Part shown: positions 3,577 through 30,397 of the stretch, one piece after another
Layout: each line of letters starts with the position of its first letter
How positions within the stretch are numbered: the first letter of the stretch is position 1
From: Gemmatimonadota bacterium
GTDB taxonomy: Bacteria; Gemmatimonadota; Gemmatimonadetes; Gemmatimonadales; JACORV01
Assembly: GCA_016209905.1 (NCBI GenBank)
Contig: JACQVG010000118.1
Coordinates: 1-34,571, forward strand
Length of the DNA: 34,571 nt
Reading direction: 5' to 3'
Notes under the pieces: generated by a model
What the model saw: only the letters and a program-made list of their open reading frames with translations
Databases searched by the model: none
Told to the model about the DNA's origin: nothing
Program-made: the position numbers and the translations under genes

Positions 3577-4449
3577 ATGCTGATCGCCGCGGCCCACGGC
3601 GGGCAGACACGCCCGGCCCGCGCGCAGGTGCCGGCGGAGGCGGTGCCGGGCGGGCCCGTGGACACGCTGGCCGTGCCGGCCCGGGTTGCGGCGGAGCGAA
3701 GCCGTCCTGCGCTCCTCGACCGGCCGGAGACGATTGCTCCCGCGGGCGCCGTCCCGCTCCACCGTCGGGCCTGGACGTGGCCGGTCGCGTCGCTCCTCGT
3801 CCCCGGCTCGGGGCAGGCTCTCGCGGGCCAGGGACGAGGGCTCGTGTACCTCGCCACGGAGGTGTGGGCGCTGACGCGCGCCGTATCGCTCGGGCGCGAG
3901 GGGCGCCGCGGGCGGGAGCACTTTCAGCAGCTGGCCTTCGCCGTGGCGCGCCGGGCCTTCGCGTCGCGCCGGCGGGATGGACCGTTCGACTACTACGAGA
4001 CGATGGGCCAATTCGTCGAGAGCGGGAACTTCGACGTCGATCCCGGCCCCGGCTTCGAGCCGGAGCCGGACACGACGACCTTCAACGGCTCGGTCTGGCT
4101 CGTCGCGCGGCGCACCTTCTTCCAGAACCCCGACTCGGTCCCGGATCCGACGTCACGTCCCTACCGCACGGCGCTGGCGTTCTACAGGGCGCGCGCCGTG
4201 GACGGCGAGTTCCGCTGGAGCTGGCGCGATGCGCGGCTCGAACAGGACGCCTTCCGGGCCGCGATTCACGCCAGCGACGAAGCGTTCCGCGCTGCGACCA
4301 ACTATCTCGGCGTGCTTGTCATCAACCACGTCGGCAGCGCGGTGGACGCACTGGTGATGTCGCGTCTCGGCAGGCGCGGGGCGGTCCCGCGCGTCGGCCT
4401 GGGCGACGGCCCGCTGTCCGTGACGCTCTCGTGGCACGCCGGCTTCTAG
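3577..4449 (+). CDS. Conserved envelope-associated protein (DUF5683-like character)
   Basis: Hydrophobic motif VASLLVPGSGQALAGQGRGLVYLATEVWALTRAV; C-terminal beta-rich end LSVTLSWHAGF. Family assignment is tentative. Confidence 0.55.
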   Translation: MLIAAAHGGQTRPARAQVPAEAVPGGPVDTLAVPARVAAERSRPALLDRPETIAPAGAVPLHRRAWTWPVASLLVPGSGQALAGQGRGLVYLATEVWALTRAVSLGREGRRGREHFQQLAFAVARRAFASRRRDGPFDYYETMGQFVESGNFDVDPGPGFEPEPDTTTFNGSVWLVARRTFFQNPDSVPDPTSRPYRTALAFYRARAVDGEFRWSWRDARLEQDAFRAAIHASDEAFRAATNYLGVLVINHVGSAVDALVMSRLGRRGAVPRVGLGDGPLSVTLSWHAGF

Positions 4450-4476
4450 GCGTGGCCTTCGGGACACGGGTCCACG

Positions 4477-4513
4477 CGGCCGGCGTGCCGGCCGGCGTCG
4501 CGCTCTTGGTTTG
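4477..4513 (+). terminator. Candidate terminator hairpin
   Basis: cggccggc-gt-gccggccg perfect inverted repeat (4477-4494; practical stem 7 bp, 4-nt loop), then a T-enriched stretch ctcttggttt. The U-tract is weak. Confidence 0.4.
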
Positions 4514-4539
4514 ACACCTCGTTTGACGAGGGCTAAGTT
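4511..4539 (+). promoter_or_regulatory. Sigma70-like promoter for the GGDEF gene
   Basis: TTGACA (4511-4516), exactly 17-nt spacer, TAAGTT (4534-4539). Spacer contains the inverted repeat CCTCG-TTTGA-CGAGG (4517-4531). Confidence 0.6.
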
Positions 4540-4570
4540 GAGCGTTTCTCGCGCGTTGCGAGAGGAGACG

Positions 4571-5530
4571 GTGCGGACGCGGCCCACGATCATCTTCTTC
4601 TCCTCCGCGGGTCGCCCGGTGCCCGGCCTAGTGGCAACCTGGCTGGCGCGGAAGGGACTCCTCTCGGTGGAGATCAGCGACGCGGCGCAGATCGAAGCCA
4701 TGACCCAGCGCGCGCTCCCAGCCATGGTCCTGGTGGACGGGAACGCGGACCCGGCGCCCGGACTGGCGCTATGCCGTCACCTCAAGGCGGATCCGTATTC
4801 GGCCATCGTCCCGGTCGCCTTCCTCGAGGACGCGCACGCCGGAGATCGCGTGCACCAAGCCTTCGGCGCCGGCGCCGATGAGGTCCTGACCCCGATCTTC
4901 GATCCGGAGGAGCAGCGGTCGCGGCTCGATGTGCTGCTGACGCGCACCGAACGCAACGTGGCCGTGCATCCCTCGACGCGCCTCCCCGGCACGAGTGAGA
5001 TCGAGCGCGAGATCAAGCGGCGCATGGCCGCGGCGGAGCCCTTCGCGGTGTGCTATGCGGACCTCGACCACTTCAAGGAGTACAACGACCGATATTCGTA
5101 CGGCGACGGGGACCGGGTGATCCTGAACCTGTCCCGGATTCTCCATGACGTGGTGAAGGGGCTGTGCGGCGCGCGAGGGTTCGTCGGGCATATCGGCGGC
5201 GACGATTTCATCTTGGTTTTGCCCGTCGCGATAACCGACCAGTGCTGCCGCGAGATCATCACGGCTTTCGACCTCCTGATCCCCTTGCAGTACTCGGAGG
5301 CGGATCGCCGCACCGGCTATTTCTTCGGGAAGGACCGGCAGGGCCAGCTGCACAAGGTGCCGTTCATGACGCTGTCGATCGGGATCGTCACGAGCGAGCG
5401 CCGGATCTTCACCCATCCGGCGCAGGTGAGCGCCCTCGCGACGGAGATGAAGAACTACGCGAAGACCCTGGCGGGTTCCGTGTTCGTCGAGGATCGGCGC
5501 CAGAAGGTCGCGGACGGGAAGGCGGGCTGA
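4571..5530 (+). CDS. Response-regulator-like protein with C-terminal GGDEF-family domain (GGDDF variant)
   Basis: REC-like N-terminus RPTIIFFSSAGRPVPGLVATWL...MVLVDGNADPAPGLALCRHLKADPYSAIVPVAFLEDA; GGDEF-like FAVCYADLDHFKEYNDRYSYGDGDRVI...GFVGHIGGDDFILVLP. GTG at 4571 preceded by AGAGGAGA; the ORF-track TTG at 4511 falls in the -35 box. Confidence 0.8.
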   Translation: MRTRPTIIFFSSAGRPVPGLVATWLARKGLLSVEISDAAQIEAMTQRALPAMVLVDGNADPAPGLALCRHLKADPYSAIVPVAFLEDAHAGDRVHQAFGAGADEVLTPIFDPEEQRSRLDVLLTRTERNVAVHPSTRLPGTSEIEREIKRRMAAAEPFAVCYADLDHFKEYNDRYSYGDGDRVILNLSRILHDVVKGLCGARGFVGHIGGDDFILVLPVAITDQCCREIITAFDLLIPLQYSEADRRTGYFFGKDRQGQLHKVPFMTLSIGIVTSERRIFTHPAQVSALATEMKNYAKTLAGSVFVEDRRQKVADGKAG

Positions 5531-23848: not shown

Positions 23849-24930
23849 GCGGCGGGCTCGACTGGGGCGCGCTGGCGCGATGGATCTGGCGGTCGCAGTC
23901 GCCGTGGGCGAGCCTGAGCCGCCTGGCGCTCCTTCCGCCGGCGGCGCTGTATCGCCTGGGTGTGCTGGTCCGAAACGTCGCCTACGACGCCGGGGCGCTC
24001 ACGGCTCAGCCGCTGCCCCTGCCGTCGGTGGGAGTCGGAAACCTGGTCGTAGGGGGCGTCGGCAAGACGCCGTTCGCCTCCTTTCTCGCCGCCGAGCTGG
24101 TGCGGCGCGGTGTGAAGCCGGGCATTCTCCTGCGGGGCTACGGGGCGGACGAGGAGCGCGAGCACGCCGCGGCTGTCTCCCTCGCGGTTGTGGTGGTCAA
24201 TCCGGATCGCCGTGCTGCGGCGGAACGGGCCGCGCGATCCGGGGCGCGGGCGCTGGTCCTGGATGATTGTCTCCAGCGGCGCGACGTGGTCGCCGACCTG
24301 ATGCTGGCGATGGTGAGCGCGGAGAGCACGGCGCCGCCGCGCTGGCCGCTGCCGGCCGGGCCGTGGCGCGAGGGCCTCGGAGCGCTGGGCCGGGCGGACG
24401 CCGTGGTCGTCAGTCACAAGACTGCTGCGGCCGCGGATGCGGCGGCGCTTGGCGCCCGCCTCGCTCCTCGCACCCGGCTCGGCGCCGCCTGCGCGGTGGA
24501 GCTGGCTGTGGGAGAGTTCCGACCCATCCGCGGCGGCCCCGCGATGGGCACCGCGGCGGTGGCCGGCCGGAGCGTGGTCGCGGTGTGCGGCATCGGCGCC
24601 CCGGAGCTCTTTGCGGCGCAGTTGGGCCGGCTCGGCGCTCGGGTGCGGCTCCTGGCCTTCGGCGATCATCACGACTACCGCTCGTCCGACGTGCAGGCCG
24701 CGCGGTCGCTGGCGGGCGAAGGCGGACTGGTGGTCACGACCGCCAAGGATGCCGTGAAGCTCGCGCCGCTCTGGCTCGACGCCGCGCCGTCCTGTTGGGT
24801 GGCCACCCTCGTCGCGCGCATGACGGCGGGCGGGGAAATGCTGAGCCGGCTGCTGGATCGCGTCGCGACGGCGGCGCGTTCGACACCTCGACCTGGAGAG
24901 GCGGAGGCGCCGCCTTCGGGAGTCTCATGA
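23845..24930 (+). CDS. lpxK: Tetraacyldisaccharide 4'-kinase (motif-divergent)
   Basis: [89 protein letters not shown]; adjacent to lpxB. Confidence 0.88.
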
Positions 24931-26219
24931 CCGACGCCAAGCAGTTGATTCGACCCGAGAGAGACCGGTTCCTGGCCGACGAGAACCCGTTCGAGGCGAT
25001 GATGTCGCGGTTCGATTACGCCGCGCAGCTGCTCCGGCTGGACGGGGGCCTGTACAAGGTTCTCCGGAATCCGGAGAAGCAGATCATCGTGTCCGTACCC
25101 GTGGCGATGGACTCCGGGGAGGTGGAGGTGTTCACCGGCTATCGGGTGCTCTACAACACGTCGCGGGGCCCAGCCAAGGGCGGGATCCGCTTCGACCTGG
25201 GCGTGACGCTCGAGGAGGTCAAGGCGCTGGCGGCGTGGATGACCTGGAAGTGCGCCGTGGTCAACATCCCCTTCGGAGGCTCCAAGGGCGGCGTCGTGTG
25301 CGATCCGACGACGATGTCCGCGAGCGAGCTCGAGAAGCTGACCCGCCGCTACACGGCCAGCATCATCGAAACGCTGGGGCCCGACTCGGACGTGCCGGCG
25401 CCGGACATGAATACCAACGAGCGGGTCATGGCGTGGGTCATGGACACCTACTCCATGCACAAGCGCCACACCGTCACTGCCGTGGTCACGGGCAAGCCGA
25501 TCGAGATGGGCGGCTCGGCCGGCCGGCGGGAGGCGACGGGGCGCGGCTGCATGATCTGCACCCGAGAGGCTCTCCGGCATCTGGGCATGCCCCTCGGGGG
25601 GGCGGCGGCGGTCGTGCAGGGGTTCGGCAACGTCGGCTCGGTGACCGCCGAGCTGCTTCGTCGCGAGGGATGCCGCATCGTCGGGGCCAGCGATGTGTCT
25701 GGCGGCGTCTACAACGCGAAGGGCCTCGACCCCCAGGACCTGGTGGCGTGGCGCCAGGCGCACCGCTATTTGTCGGGGTACCCGAAGGGCGAGCGGGTGA
25801 CCAACGAGGAGCTGTTGACGGCGGAGTGCGACGTCCTGGTGCCGGCCGCACTCGAGAACGTCATCACCGCCCGCAACGCCGGCGACATCAAGGCGAAGGT
25901 GATCGTCGAGGGCGCCAACGGGCCGACGGCGGCGGGCGCCGACGACATCCTCGACCGCAAGGGAATCTTCGTGGTTCCCGATATCTTGGCGAACGCGGGC
26001 GGGGTGACGGTTAGCTACTTCGAATGGGTGCAGGACCGTGGCGGCTATTTCTGGTCCGAGGAGACGGTGAACAACCGCCTCACCGAGATCATGGTGCACA
26101 GCTTCGGCCACGTCCTGGAGGTCTCCAAGCGTTACAGCGTGAACATGCGGATCGGCGCCTACACCCTCGCCATCGACCGGGTGGCCGCCGTCCACCGTCT
26201 GCGCGGTTTGTACGCCTGA
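24927..26219 (+). CDS. Glu/Leu/Phe/Val dehydrogenase family protein (glutamate dehydrogenase-like)
   Basis: [109 protein letters not shown]. Confidence 0.95.
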
Positions 26220-26291
26220 GGTGCCAGGCGCCGTCGCCGGGCCGGAGCTGCCGGCTTCCGGGCGCGGGCTGAGGCAGGGGCCCGCTGCCGC

Positions 26292-27011
26292 GTGAGCGAG
26301 TGGTTCGAGCGCTGGTTCGGCGAGGAGTACCTCAACCTTTATCCCCACCGCGACGATGAGGAGGCGGAGCGGCTCGTGGAACTGCTGTGGGAGCGGGGGC
26401 TCGCCCGGCACGGCGACCGCGTGCTCGACCTCGCCTGCGGGCCCGGCCGCCACTCGGCGGCGCTGCGCCGGCGCGGAGCGCTGGTAGTCGGCCTCGATCT
26501 CTCGATGCCGCTGCTCCTCACCGCCCGGCACCGGGGCGCCGCGCCTCTCCTGCGAGGCGATATGCGCGCGCTGTCGCTGCGCGGCGAGAGCTTTGACGTC
26601 GTCCTCAATCTCTTCACGAGCTTCGGGTACTTCGGCAGCGACCACGAACACCATCGCGTCCTTCGGGAGGTGGCGCGGGTGTTGCGGCGGGGCGGCGTCT
26701 TCGTTCTGGACTTCCTGAACGCCCCGGCCGTGCGCGGGTCGCTCGTGCCACGCGACGATCTGCGGCTCGGCCGATCTGTGGTGGTGCAGGAGCGCCGGCT
26801 CTCGGCGGACGGCCGCTTCGTGGTGAAAACCATTCACCTCGGCGGGGATGGCCGGAGCTTCATTGAGCGCGTGCGCCTCTACGAGCGGCCGGACCTCGAA
26901 GGGATGATGCTGTCGGCGGGCTTGGTTCCGGAGGCCGCGTTCGGCGACTACGACGGCCGGCCGCACGCTCCGGGGAGTCCGCGCCTGCTCCTGCTGGCGC
27001 GCCGGCAGTGA
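26292..27011 (+). CDS. Class I SAM-dependent methyltransferase (candidate bacillithiol N-methyltransferase)
   Basis: RVLDLACGPGRHSAALRRRGALVVGLDLSMPLL, LLRGDMRALSLRGESFDVVLNLFTSFGYF, VLRRGGVFVLDFLN; GTG start; 4-nt GTGA overlap with bshC. Confidence 0.88.
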   Translation: MSEWFERWFGEEYLNLYPHRDDEEAERLVELLWERGLARHGDRVLDLACGPGRHSAALRRRGALVVGLDLSMPLLLTARHRGAAPLLRGDMRALSLRGESFDVVLNLFTSFGYFGSDHEHHRVLREVARVLRRGGVFVLDFLNAPAVRGSLVPRDDLRLGRSVVVQERRLSADGRFVVKTIHLGGDGRSFIERVRLYERPDLEGMMLSAGLVPEAAFGDYDGRPHAPGSPRLLLLARRQ

Positions 27012-28552
27012 CGCTCCGCTTCGCGTCCGCAGCGCCGACGGGTCCCGCACAGGGCGACGTCGAGTCCGCGTGGGCGGCGCAGAGGGCGCGCCGTTTCCCG
27101 GCGAGCGCCGCGCCGGCGCTGCTGGCGGAAGGCCGGGCCACTGCCGGCCTGGAGCAGCTTCAAAGCGGCGGCGCGCTCGCCGTCACCACCGGCCAGCAGG
27201 CTTGTCTTTTCACGGGCCCCCTGTACACGGTCTACAAGGCGCTGAGCGCGGCTGCCTTCGCCGAGGCGCTTGCCGCGCAGCGGCGGAGGCCGGTCGTGGC
27301 CGTTTTCTGGGTCGCTGGCGACGACCACGATTTCGCCGAGATCAACCATTGCAGCGTTCTCGGTGCGGATGGCCGTCCCGCGCGCATCACGCTGCGGGAG
27401 AGAGTCTCCGGCGCGCCGATGCTCCCGGCCTACCGGGAGGCCGTCGGCTCGGAGGGCGCGTCCGCGCTGGAGGCCCTCGAGGCGGCCCTGCCGCCCAGCC
27501 AGTTTCGCGCTGAAACCGTCGCGTGGCTGCAGCGGGCATACCGCGCCGACCGGTCGCTCGCGGAGGCGAGCGCGGTCGCGCTGGCCGAGCTGCTCGGCCC
27601 GCTGGGGATCGTGATCTGCCGGGGCTGGCACCCCTCGCTCAAGGCCGCCGCGCGGCCCACGATGCTGCGGGCGCTGCGGGCTGCCGCCCTGCTGGGTGAC
27701 GCGCTGCAGGCCGAAGCCGGGCAGGTGCGCGGGGCCGGGGCGACGCCGGCGGTCGAGGTCGCTCCGGGCATGACGCTGCTGATGATCGAAGGGCGTCTGG
27801 GCCGCGATCGGCTGCGACTGGCGGACGGCGGCCGCTTCGTGACACGGCGCAGCGGCGAAACCTTTACGCTCGACGAACTGGAGGCGATTGCGGCCGCCGA
27901 GCCCGAGAAGATCTCGGCGAGCGTGCTCCTGCGGCCTGCGGTCGAGGCGGACCTCCTGCCGACGGTCGCCTACGTCGCCGGTCCCGCTGAGCTCGACTAC
28001 CTGGCCCAGGCGGGGCCGGTTTTCTCGACGCTGGGGGTACCGCGCCCGGTCCGCCTCCCGCGGCTCTCGGGCTTCCTCGTGGAGGCGAAGGTGGACCGCG
28101 TGCTCGGGCGCTATCAGATGGCGCCCGAGGCCCTCGCCTCCGAGCGGGAGTTGGACGCCGTCGTGCGCGATACGCTGCCCGCCGGCGCCGCGGAGGCGCT
28201 GGCGGCCTTGCGCCGCGCGCTGAGCGAGAGATATGAGGTGCTCATCGCCGAGGCCGTCGCGATCGAGCGGACCCTTCAGAAACCGGTCGAGTCGGCCCGG
28301 AATCAAGCGCTGGCGACCGCGCAGGAGATCGAGAAGCGGCTGCTCGCGCATCTCAAGCGGCACAATGAGACGGCCCTTCAGCAGGTCAGCCGGGCCCGCG
28401 AGCAGCTCTTCCCGGACGGCCGACCGCAGGAGCGCGTGCTCAGCGTCGTCTCGTTTCTCGCCCGCCACGGCACGGCGGCACTCGGGCTGATCTTCGACGC
28501 CGCCCGAGCGCACGTGCGGCGCCTACTTGAAGCGCCTCTGCCGCCGACCTAG
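27008..28552 (+). CDS. bshC: Putative cysteine ligase BshC (bacillithiol biosynthesis)
   Basis: ALAVTTGQQACLFTGPLYTVYKALSAAAFAEALAAQRRRPVVAVFWVAGDDHDFAEINHCSVL; C-terminal coiled coil; KRHNETALQQVSRAREQLFPDGRPQERVLSVVSFLARHG. Confidence 0.92.
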   Translation: MTLRFASAAPTGPAQGDVESAWAAQRARRFPASAAPALLAEGRATAGLEQLQSGGALAVTTGQQACLFTGPLYTVYKALSAAAFAEALAAQRRRPVVAVFWVAGDDHDFAEINHCSVLGADGRPARITLRERVSGAPMLPAYREAVGSEGASALEALEAALPPSQFRAETVAWLQRAYRADRSLAEASAVALAELLGPLGIVICRGWHPSLKAAARPTMLRALRAAALLGDALQAEAGQVRGAGATPAVEVAPGMTLLMIEGRLGRDRLRLADGGRFVTRRSGETFTLDELEAIAAAEPEKISASVLLRPAVEADLLPTVAYVAGPAELDYLAQAGPVFSTLGVPRPVRLPRLSGFLVEAKVDRVLGRYQMAPEALASERELDAVVRDTLPAGAAEALAALRRALSERYEVLIAEAVAIERTLQKPVESARNQALATAQEIEKRLLAHLKRHNETALQQVSRAREQLFPDGRPQERVLSVVSFLARHGTAALGLIFDAARAHVRRLLEAPLPPT

Positions 28553-28561
28553 GTTACCCCG

Positions 28562-28849
28562 ATGGTCTGGCTCGTGATCTTCGTCGCGCTCATGATCCCG
28601 CTGACCGCGGTCGTGTTGGACTCGCCGGTGGTGCGGGCGTGGGTCGAGCGGATGCACGGAGGCGGCGCCGACGCACCGACCGACGTGAAGGAGCTGGACA
28701 AGAAGGTTCGTGTGCTCGAGGCCGAGCTCGAAGCGATGACCCGGCAGCTGGTCCAACTCCAGGAAGAGCATCAGTTCCTCCAGCGGCTGCTCGAAGATCC
28801 GGCGCACCGCCAGGACGCCGCGAAGCCGCTCCCCAAGTCCGGCGCCTAG
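28562..28849 (+). CDS. Small membrane-anchored coiled-coil protein of unknown function
   Basis: MVWLVIFVALMIPLTAVVLDSPVVRAWVERM (TM) followed by heptad-rich DVKELDKKVRVLEAELEAMTRQLVQLQEEHQFLQRLLED; tight spacing with bshC and murJ. Confidence 0.7.
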   Translation: MVWLVIFVALMIPLTAVVLDSPVVRAWVERMHGGGADAPTDVKELDKKVRVLEAELEAMTRQLVQLQEEHQFLQRLLEDPAHRQDAAKPLPKSGA

Positions 28850-28852
28850 CCG

Positions 28853-30397
28853 ATGGCGCGTGCGGCGGGGCGCGCTGCGGCGCTCGTCGCCGCGGGCATC
28901 TTCGTGTCCCGCATTCTCGGCTTCGTCCGCGAGCGGGTCTTCGCACACTACTTCGGCAACGCCGCCGCCGCCGACGCGGTGCGCGCGGCGCTCAAGATCC
29001 CCAACCTCATCCGTAATCTGCTGGGCGAAGGGACGCTGTCGGCCTCGTTCATCCCCGTGTACGCGCGGCTGCTCGAATCGGAGGATCCGCGCGCGGCCCG
29101 TGCGCTCGCGGGAGCAGTGGCGTCGCTGCTGCTCGTCGCGACGGGCGTCGCCGCATTGCTCGGCCTCGCCTTTGCGCCCCTGATCACGGCGGTCGTGGCG
29201 CCCGGCTTCGACCGCGAGACCAGGCGGCTGACGGTCACCCTGGTGCGCGTCCTCTTTCCGATGTCCGGGCTGCTGGTCCTGGCGGCGTGGTGCCTCGGCG
29301 TGCTGAACTCCCACCGGCGCTTCTTCCTGCCCTACGCGGCGCCGACGCTCTGGAACGTGGCGCAGATCGCGGTACTGATCGCGCTGGGTGGGGTGACGGC
29401 GGGCGGCGAGCTGGCGGTGTGGCTCGCGTGGGGCACGCTCGCGGGCGCCGCGCTCCAGCTCGCCATCCAGGTGCCCACGGCGCTCGGGCTTGCCGGGAGC
29501 GTGGACTTCCGGCCGTCGCTCGCCGTGCACGGCGTGCGCGATGTGCTGCGTGCCTGGACCCCGGTCGTCATCGGTGCCGGGGTGGTGCAGATCTCGAGCC
29601 TCGTGGACACGCTGCTCGCCAGCCTGCTTGAGCCGGGGGCCGTGGCCAGCCTGGGCTACGCGCAGCTCCTCACCAACTTGCCGATCGCCCTCTTCGGCGT
29701 CTCGGTGGCGGCTGCCTCGCTGCCCGAGCTGTCGCGGGAGGCCGCCGGCCCGGAAGCGCGTGAGGCTCTGCGGGCGCGTCTCGCCGATGGTTTCCGACGC
29801 ATCGTTTTCTTCGTGCTGCCGTGCGCTTTCGCATTCGCCGTGCTAGCCGAGCCCATCGTGCGCCTGCTGTTCCAGACCGGCCGCTTCGGCGCGCGCGACA
29901 CGACTCTGGTGAGCGGCGTCCTGGCGGCGTACAGCCTCGGCCTGGTCGGATACGCGACTGTCAAGCTCTTCGCCTCGGGCTTCTACGCCCTCCAGGACAC
30001 GCGGACGCCGGTGACCATCGCCGCCAGCTCGGTCATCATTTCGGCTCTGCTCTCCTTGATGCTGATGCCGTACTTCGGGCCGGCGGGTGTCGCGTTGGGT
30101 TCGGGCCTCGCCGCCACCTACAACATGGTGATGCACCTGGTCCATCTCGAACGCCGCACCGGCGCGGTCTTTCGGCACGCCGACCGACGGGCGCTGGCCG
30201 TCGCCCTGGTCGCGAGCGGCGTGGCGAGCGTGGTCGGCCTGGCCGGCGCCCGCCTGGGAGCGTCGATCGGGCCCATCGGCGCGGCGCTCGTCGCGCCGGT
30301 CGCCTTCGCAGCCGCCTATCTCGGCGTGGCGCGAGGGGCCGGCCACCCCGACGCGGCGCGGCTGGCGGCCATCCTGGGGCGCTGGCTCTCACCATGA
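28853..30397 (+). CDS. murJ: Lipid II flippase MurJ
   Basis: VAAGIFVSRILGFVRERVFAHYFGNAAAADAVRAALKIPNLIRNLLGEGTLSASFIPVYARLLE is the MurJ/MviN N-terminus; about 14 hydrophobic helices; LFQTGRFGARDT. Confidence 0.95.
   Translation: MARAAGRAAALVAAGIFVSRILGFVRERVFAHYFGNAAAADAVRAALKIPNLIRNLLGEGTLSASFIPVYARLLESEDPRAARALAGAVASLLLVATGVAALLGLAFAPLITAVVAPGFDRETRRLTVTLVRVLFPMSGLLVLAAWCLGVLNSHRRFFLPYAAPTLWNVAQIAVLIALGGVTAGGELAVWLAWGTLAGAALQLAIQVPTALGLAGSVDFRPSLAVHGVRDVLRAWTPVVIGAGVVQISSLVDTLLASLLEPGAVASLGYAQLLTNLPIALFGVSVAAASLPELSREAAGPEAREALRARLADGFRRIVFFVLPCAFAFAVLAEPIVRLLFQTGRFGARDTTLVSGVLAAYSLGLVGYATVKLFASGFYALQDTRTPVTIAASSVIISALLSLMLMPYFGPAGVALGSGLAATYNMVMHLVHLERRTGAVFRHADRRALAVALVASGVASVVGLAGARLGASIGPIGAALVAPVAFAAAYLGVARGAGHPDAARLAAILGRWLSP

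Follow-up and report, generated by a model that had tools for sequence, protein, structure and literature searches.

The methyltransferase encoded at positions 26292 to 27011 of the window (the whole 34,571-nucleotide stretch of DNA analyzed here) is very probably, with a rough probability of 0.92 on the sequence evidence, an orthologue of NmbA. Together with BshC it would carry out the last two steps in the synthesis of N-methyl-bacillithiol, a sulfur compound with a protective role that is likely to be the low-molecular-weight redox thiol of the source Gemmatimonadota bacterium. In the proposed pathway, UDP-GlcNAc and malate would be joined by BshA, the product would be deacetylated by BshB, and the addition of cysteine by BshC would give bacillithiol. 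NmbA would then methylate the nitrogen of the cysteine, with SAM as the methyl donor. As the two reading frames overlap, a single transcript might match the supply of the methylase to the output of bacillithiol. We infer the activity of the protein, the co-transcription and coupling of the two genes, and the thiol of the source organism; the basis in the present data is homology, residue conservation, conserved linkage, the presence of bshB and an assembly gap at bshA, and the chemistry has been demonstrated in the literature for the enzymes of C. tepidum and P. polymyxa.

Deletion of CT1040, the C. tepidum nmbA gene, abolishes N-methyl-bacillithiol while bacillithiol is kept (PMC6282198). In assays with purified enzyme from C. 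tepidum or P. polymyxa, bacillithiol is methylated, and no product forms from glutathione or glycine (PMC12719100). A thiol measurement for Polaribacter is also available in the literature. Gemmatimonadetes were named in the 2018 paper among the phyla with bacillithiol or N-methyl-bacillithiol, and NmbA orthologues have already been published for Gemmatimonadota (PMC12719100), so that the novelty of the locus is less than the first-pass annotation had implied. Neither the enzyme family nor its occurrence in this phylum is new, and the window gene is a well-supported ordinary member. The useful additions are the conserved nmbA-bshC pair and a caution concerning a paralogue. The main texts of the 2018 and 2025 NmbA papers contain no mention of the pair that we could find, and a search for literature on the genomic context of bacillithiol methyltransferases returned nothing relevant.

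The product of the downstream gene is assigned with certainty to BshC from its family models (TIGR03998, 364.9 bits against a cut-off of 265.8; Pfam PF10079 and PF24850). For the methyltransferase, the family models give only a class I methyltransferase (Methyltransf_11/25), with all NCBIfam matches far below cut-off. This generic outcome is what would be expected if the protein were some other methyltransferase of this broad superfamily, with a different small-molecule substrate, and only happened to adjoin bshC, as is the existence, in the same order, of related paralogues in another gene context. Such a reading is nevertheless very unlikely. The best sequence match in the PDB is the C. tepidum NmbA (PDB: 9RI2; E value 3.2e-40), covering residues 3–237 of the window protein and 15–260 of 9RI2, i.e., essentially full length, and it lies 26 orders of magnitude above the next solved methyltransferase, which matches over part of the window protein (E value 7.3e-14). 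The window protein shares 38.6% amino acid identity with C. tepidum NmbA, which exceeds the criterion of >25% identity applied in PMC12719100; the C. tepidum protein itself has 35% identity with a Paenibacillus homologue and about 28–31% with those from Tenacibaculum. Also against the rival reading are the linkage to bshC, seen for 60 of 62 strong homologues in the phylum sample and again in several other phyla, and the retention of ten residues that are replaced in the paralogues (see below).

An alignment of 26 homologues, which range from the genus of the window to Paenibacillus and Bacteroidota, has 29 invariant residues. In a second alignment C. tepidum NmbA has 27 of the 29, the exceptions being G67 and T109, and the shared residues include the Y134/F135 pair, which the NmbA structure paper ties to SAM binding. 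According to that paper the SAM motifs comprise VLDIAxGxG, an acidic residue after beta2, Y134/F135 and the Motif VI glycine; the equivalents in the window protein are VLDLACGPG, D69, Y113/F114 and G135. The two proteins are alike in their full-length homology, in the motif VLD(L/I)ACG and in the GYF loop. In gene order they differ: judging by locus tags, nmbA (CT1040) of C. tepidum is not beside bshC (CT1558), whereas the two genes overlap in the window. Similarly, the Paenibacillus and Bacteroidota homologues have the same invariant residues, and the Paenibacillus protein (L014) is 43–44% identical to that of the window, but no bshC adjoins them in the loci fetched.

In a phylogenetic tree the window protein groups with bshC-linked Gemmatimonadota proteins, apart from an outgroup of eight generic methyltransferases, and L010 and L011 pair with genomes of the same order; the deep forks are poorly supported (83–84) and the grouping is weak taken alone. 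The assignment of the source organism to Gemmatimonadota follows from this pairing together with the best named matches, which are Gemmatimonadetes loci. The AlphaFold model of the protein has a mean pLDDT of 90.7. The best Foldseek match by E value is again 9RI2 (1.3e-21), but the TM-score is 0.69–0.72 with an rmsd of about 8.5, and the TM-scores to some other methyltransferases exceed those to the NmbA crystal, which counts against the assignment. As the structure paper reports that AlphaFold also puts the cap strands in the wrong place for C. tepidum NmbA, fold similarity, including the TM-scores, was not counted as decisive for NmbA membership.

Conserved adjacency to bshC is the feature that goes beyond chance, and not the overlap of the genes. 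Of 75 loci with a homologue, drawn from a public collection of genomes, 13 have bshC immediately 3' of the methyltransferase gene. Besides Gemmatimonadota, the pair occurs in records whose titles name Anaerolineae, Planctomycetota, Hydrogenedentota, Spirochaetia, Krumholzibacteriia and Latescibacterota; most of the records are metagenome bins, and single titles may be wrong. Among 41 related genomes, bshC follows each of the 19 closest homologues (49–100% identity) and none of the 11 more distant homologues fetched as loci. A sample of 150 genomes of the phylum gave two score classes, 62 matches of at least 150 bits and 56 of at most 127 bits. When their coordinates were compared with those of the BshC matches, 60 of the 62 strong homologues proved to be followed directly by bshC in the same orientation, and none of the 56 weak ones lies beside bshC. 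The two unlinked strong homologues are assembly-limited cases: in G095 the homologue is near a contig start and a separate contig opens with a partial bshC, and in G046 (84% complete) bshC was not found. In the same sample, an NmbA-like protein is missing at an E value of 1e-18 from 42 of the 150 genomes, although 146 have bshC; from these matches the methylation step seems to be unevenly distributed across the phylum.

The weaker homologues of the same order (L114–L124, L130 and L132) have 36–43% identity. In 10 of the 11 loci checked they are adjoined by genes for methylmalonyl-CoA mutase, MeaB or acyl-CoA carboxylase (names taken from a reading of the L130 translations), the exception being L118; L130 and L132 are also in mutase context. 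The paralogue usually stands directly after the mutase gene, and the L130 copy is at 4066–4812 on the minus strand. This group forms one fully supported branch in the tree. The mutase-linked proteins share the SAM motif and an SFG(F)F loop with the window protein; they are unlike it in never being beside bshC, and the three that were aligned replace ten residues kept by the NmbA set: R20, A25, Y113, D140, N143, K179, E192, V194, G218 and R231 (window numbering, obtained by shifting the alignment numbers by two). In eight genomes of the 150-genome sample a strong homologue and a weak one occur together. On the grounds of gene context and residues, the mutase-linked homologues were kept apart from NmbA. 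The published census of NmbA used an E value of 1e-20 and over 25% identity (PMC12719100); judging from the scores, these criteria could count some mutase-linked paralogues as NmbA, and the 25% identity cut-off may fail to exclude them. The nmbA-bshC pair would be a practical marker for distinguishing a likely true NmbA from this paralogue.

A different methylated product or a methylated intermediate, and hence a thiol other than N-methyl-bacillithiol in this lineage, is highly improbable. It is extremely unlikely that the enzyme belongs to the bacillithiol pathway and acts on another acceptor or atom, e.g., on an intermediate that precedes cysteine addition or in a second methylation: linkage to bshC shows pathway membership and not the exact acceptor, and NmbA in vitro also methylates the secondary amine of a by-product (PMC12719100), but in the two other phyla from which homologues have been assayed, the methyl group goes to the cysteine nitrogen of bacillithiol (PMC12719100), and in C. 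tepidum N-methyl-cysteine has never been observed (PMC6282198).

The present locus supports N-methyl-bacillithiol as the thiol of nmbA-bearing Gemmatimonadota. Relatives with the nmbA-bshC pair should be expected to contain N-methyl-bacillithiol, and those with the paralogue alone should have unmethylated bacillithiol, unless the paralogue takes the place of NmbA.

The first-pass annotation had proposed that the gene may be the equivalent of Chlorobium NmbA, to be checked by alignment with that protein. The alignment is full-length, with the identity and invariant residues given above, and the closest characterized homologue, the residues, the tree, the linkage to bshC and the presence of bshB all agree with the proposal. 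Its reservation regarding a generic methyltransferase now appears unlikely to hold, given the closest homologue, the residues and the linkage. Of the two further pathway genes it had named, only bshB was recovered in the source genome (G000:C145:3901-4575; TIGR04001, 220 bits against a cut-off of 182.5). No bshA over cut-off was found in this 89.5% complete metagenome-assembled genome, which counts against the pathway reading. The best candidates, L001 and L003, score at most 100 bits against about 500 in congeners and were rejected as other glycosyltransferases. Both genomes of the same genus have bshA (about 500 bits), in the order mutL-miaA-bshA (mutL and miaA named from their translations). 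The sole sizeable match of the source genome to this stretch is mutL, running into the start of contig C130; with mutL cut at that point, miaA and bshA fall at an assembly break. A YphP/YqiW bacilliredoxin was not found in the source genome and is present in all eight relatives searched; its absence, like that of bshA, counts against the reading but is probably another assembly gap.

Features of the nmbA-bshC locus in the window
Feature	Position	Strand	Description and basis
Glu/Leu/Phe/Val dehydrogenase gene	24927..26219	+	PF00208/PF02812; conserved upstream neighbour
nmbA	26292..27011	+	SAM-dependent bacillithiol N-methyltransferase (predicted), 239 aa, GTG start; Methyltransf_11/25, 9RI2 match
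GTGA, nmbA stop / bshC start	27008..27011	+	Sequence and ORF coordinates
bshC	27008..28552	+	Cysteine-adding enzyme of bacillithiol synthesis, 514 aa, GTG start within nmbA stop; TIGR03998, PF10079, PF24850
95-aa ORF	28562..28849	+	Between bshC and murJ; conserved in genus
murJ-like gene	28853..30397	+	Conserved downstream neighbour; MurJ name from reading of translation

The coordinates of the two genes and their four shared nucleotides had been given exactly in the first-pass annotation. Its statement that the pair contains no other genes is true, but the pair belongs to a longer run on the same strand: the dehydrogenase-family gene, whose probable start lies inside a longer ORF (24267–26219), ends 72 nt 5' of nmbA, the 95-aa ORF begins 9 nt 3' of bshC, and the murJ-like gene starts 3 nt after that ORF. 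The start codon of the methyltransferase gene is credible, as the N-terminus of the protein, SEWFERWFGEEYLNLYPHRD, can be aligned with those of relatives in other phyla. In the bshC frame no start codon precedes the one in the table, ORFs having been called from the earliest start that follows a stop. An overlap of exactly 4 nt is also seen at six other gene pairs in the window; it is thus ordinary for this genome and was rejected as a sign of shared function. The LPS-type diderm context that had been suggested was borne out by lpxD, lpxC-fabZ, lpxA, lpxB and an Omp85/POTRA gene.

The order dehydrogenase-nmbA-bshC-murJ is kept in both genomes of the same genus (L127 and L128) and in L010 and L011; L012 and L013 also have nmbA-bshC-murJ, and the DNA fetched for them may end before the dehydrogenase is reached. 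The dehydrogenase and murJ-like flanks (24267–30397) are conserved in several Gemmatimonadota and have no obvious functional link to the pair. The 95-aa ORF has 71–79% identity in both genomes of the same genus and 39% in L012, and its product has a hydrophobic N-terminal stretch and a likely coiled coil.
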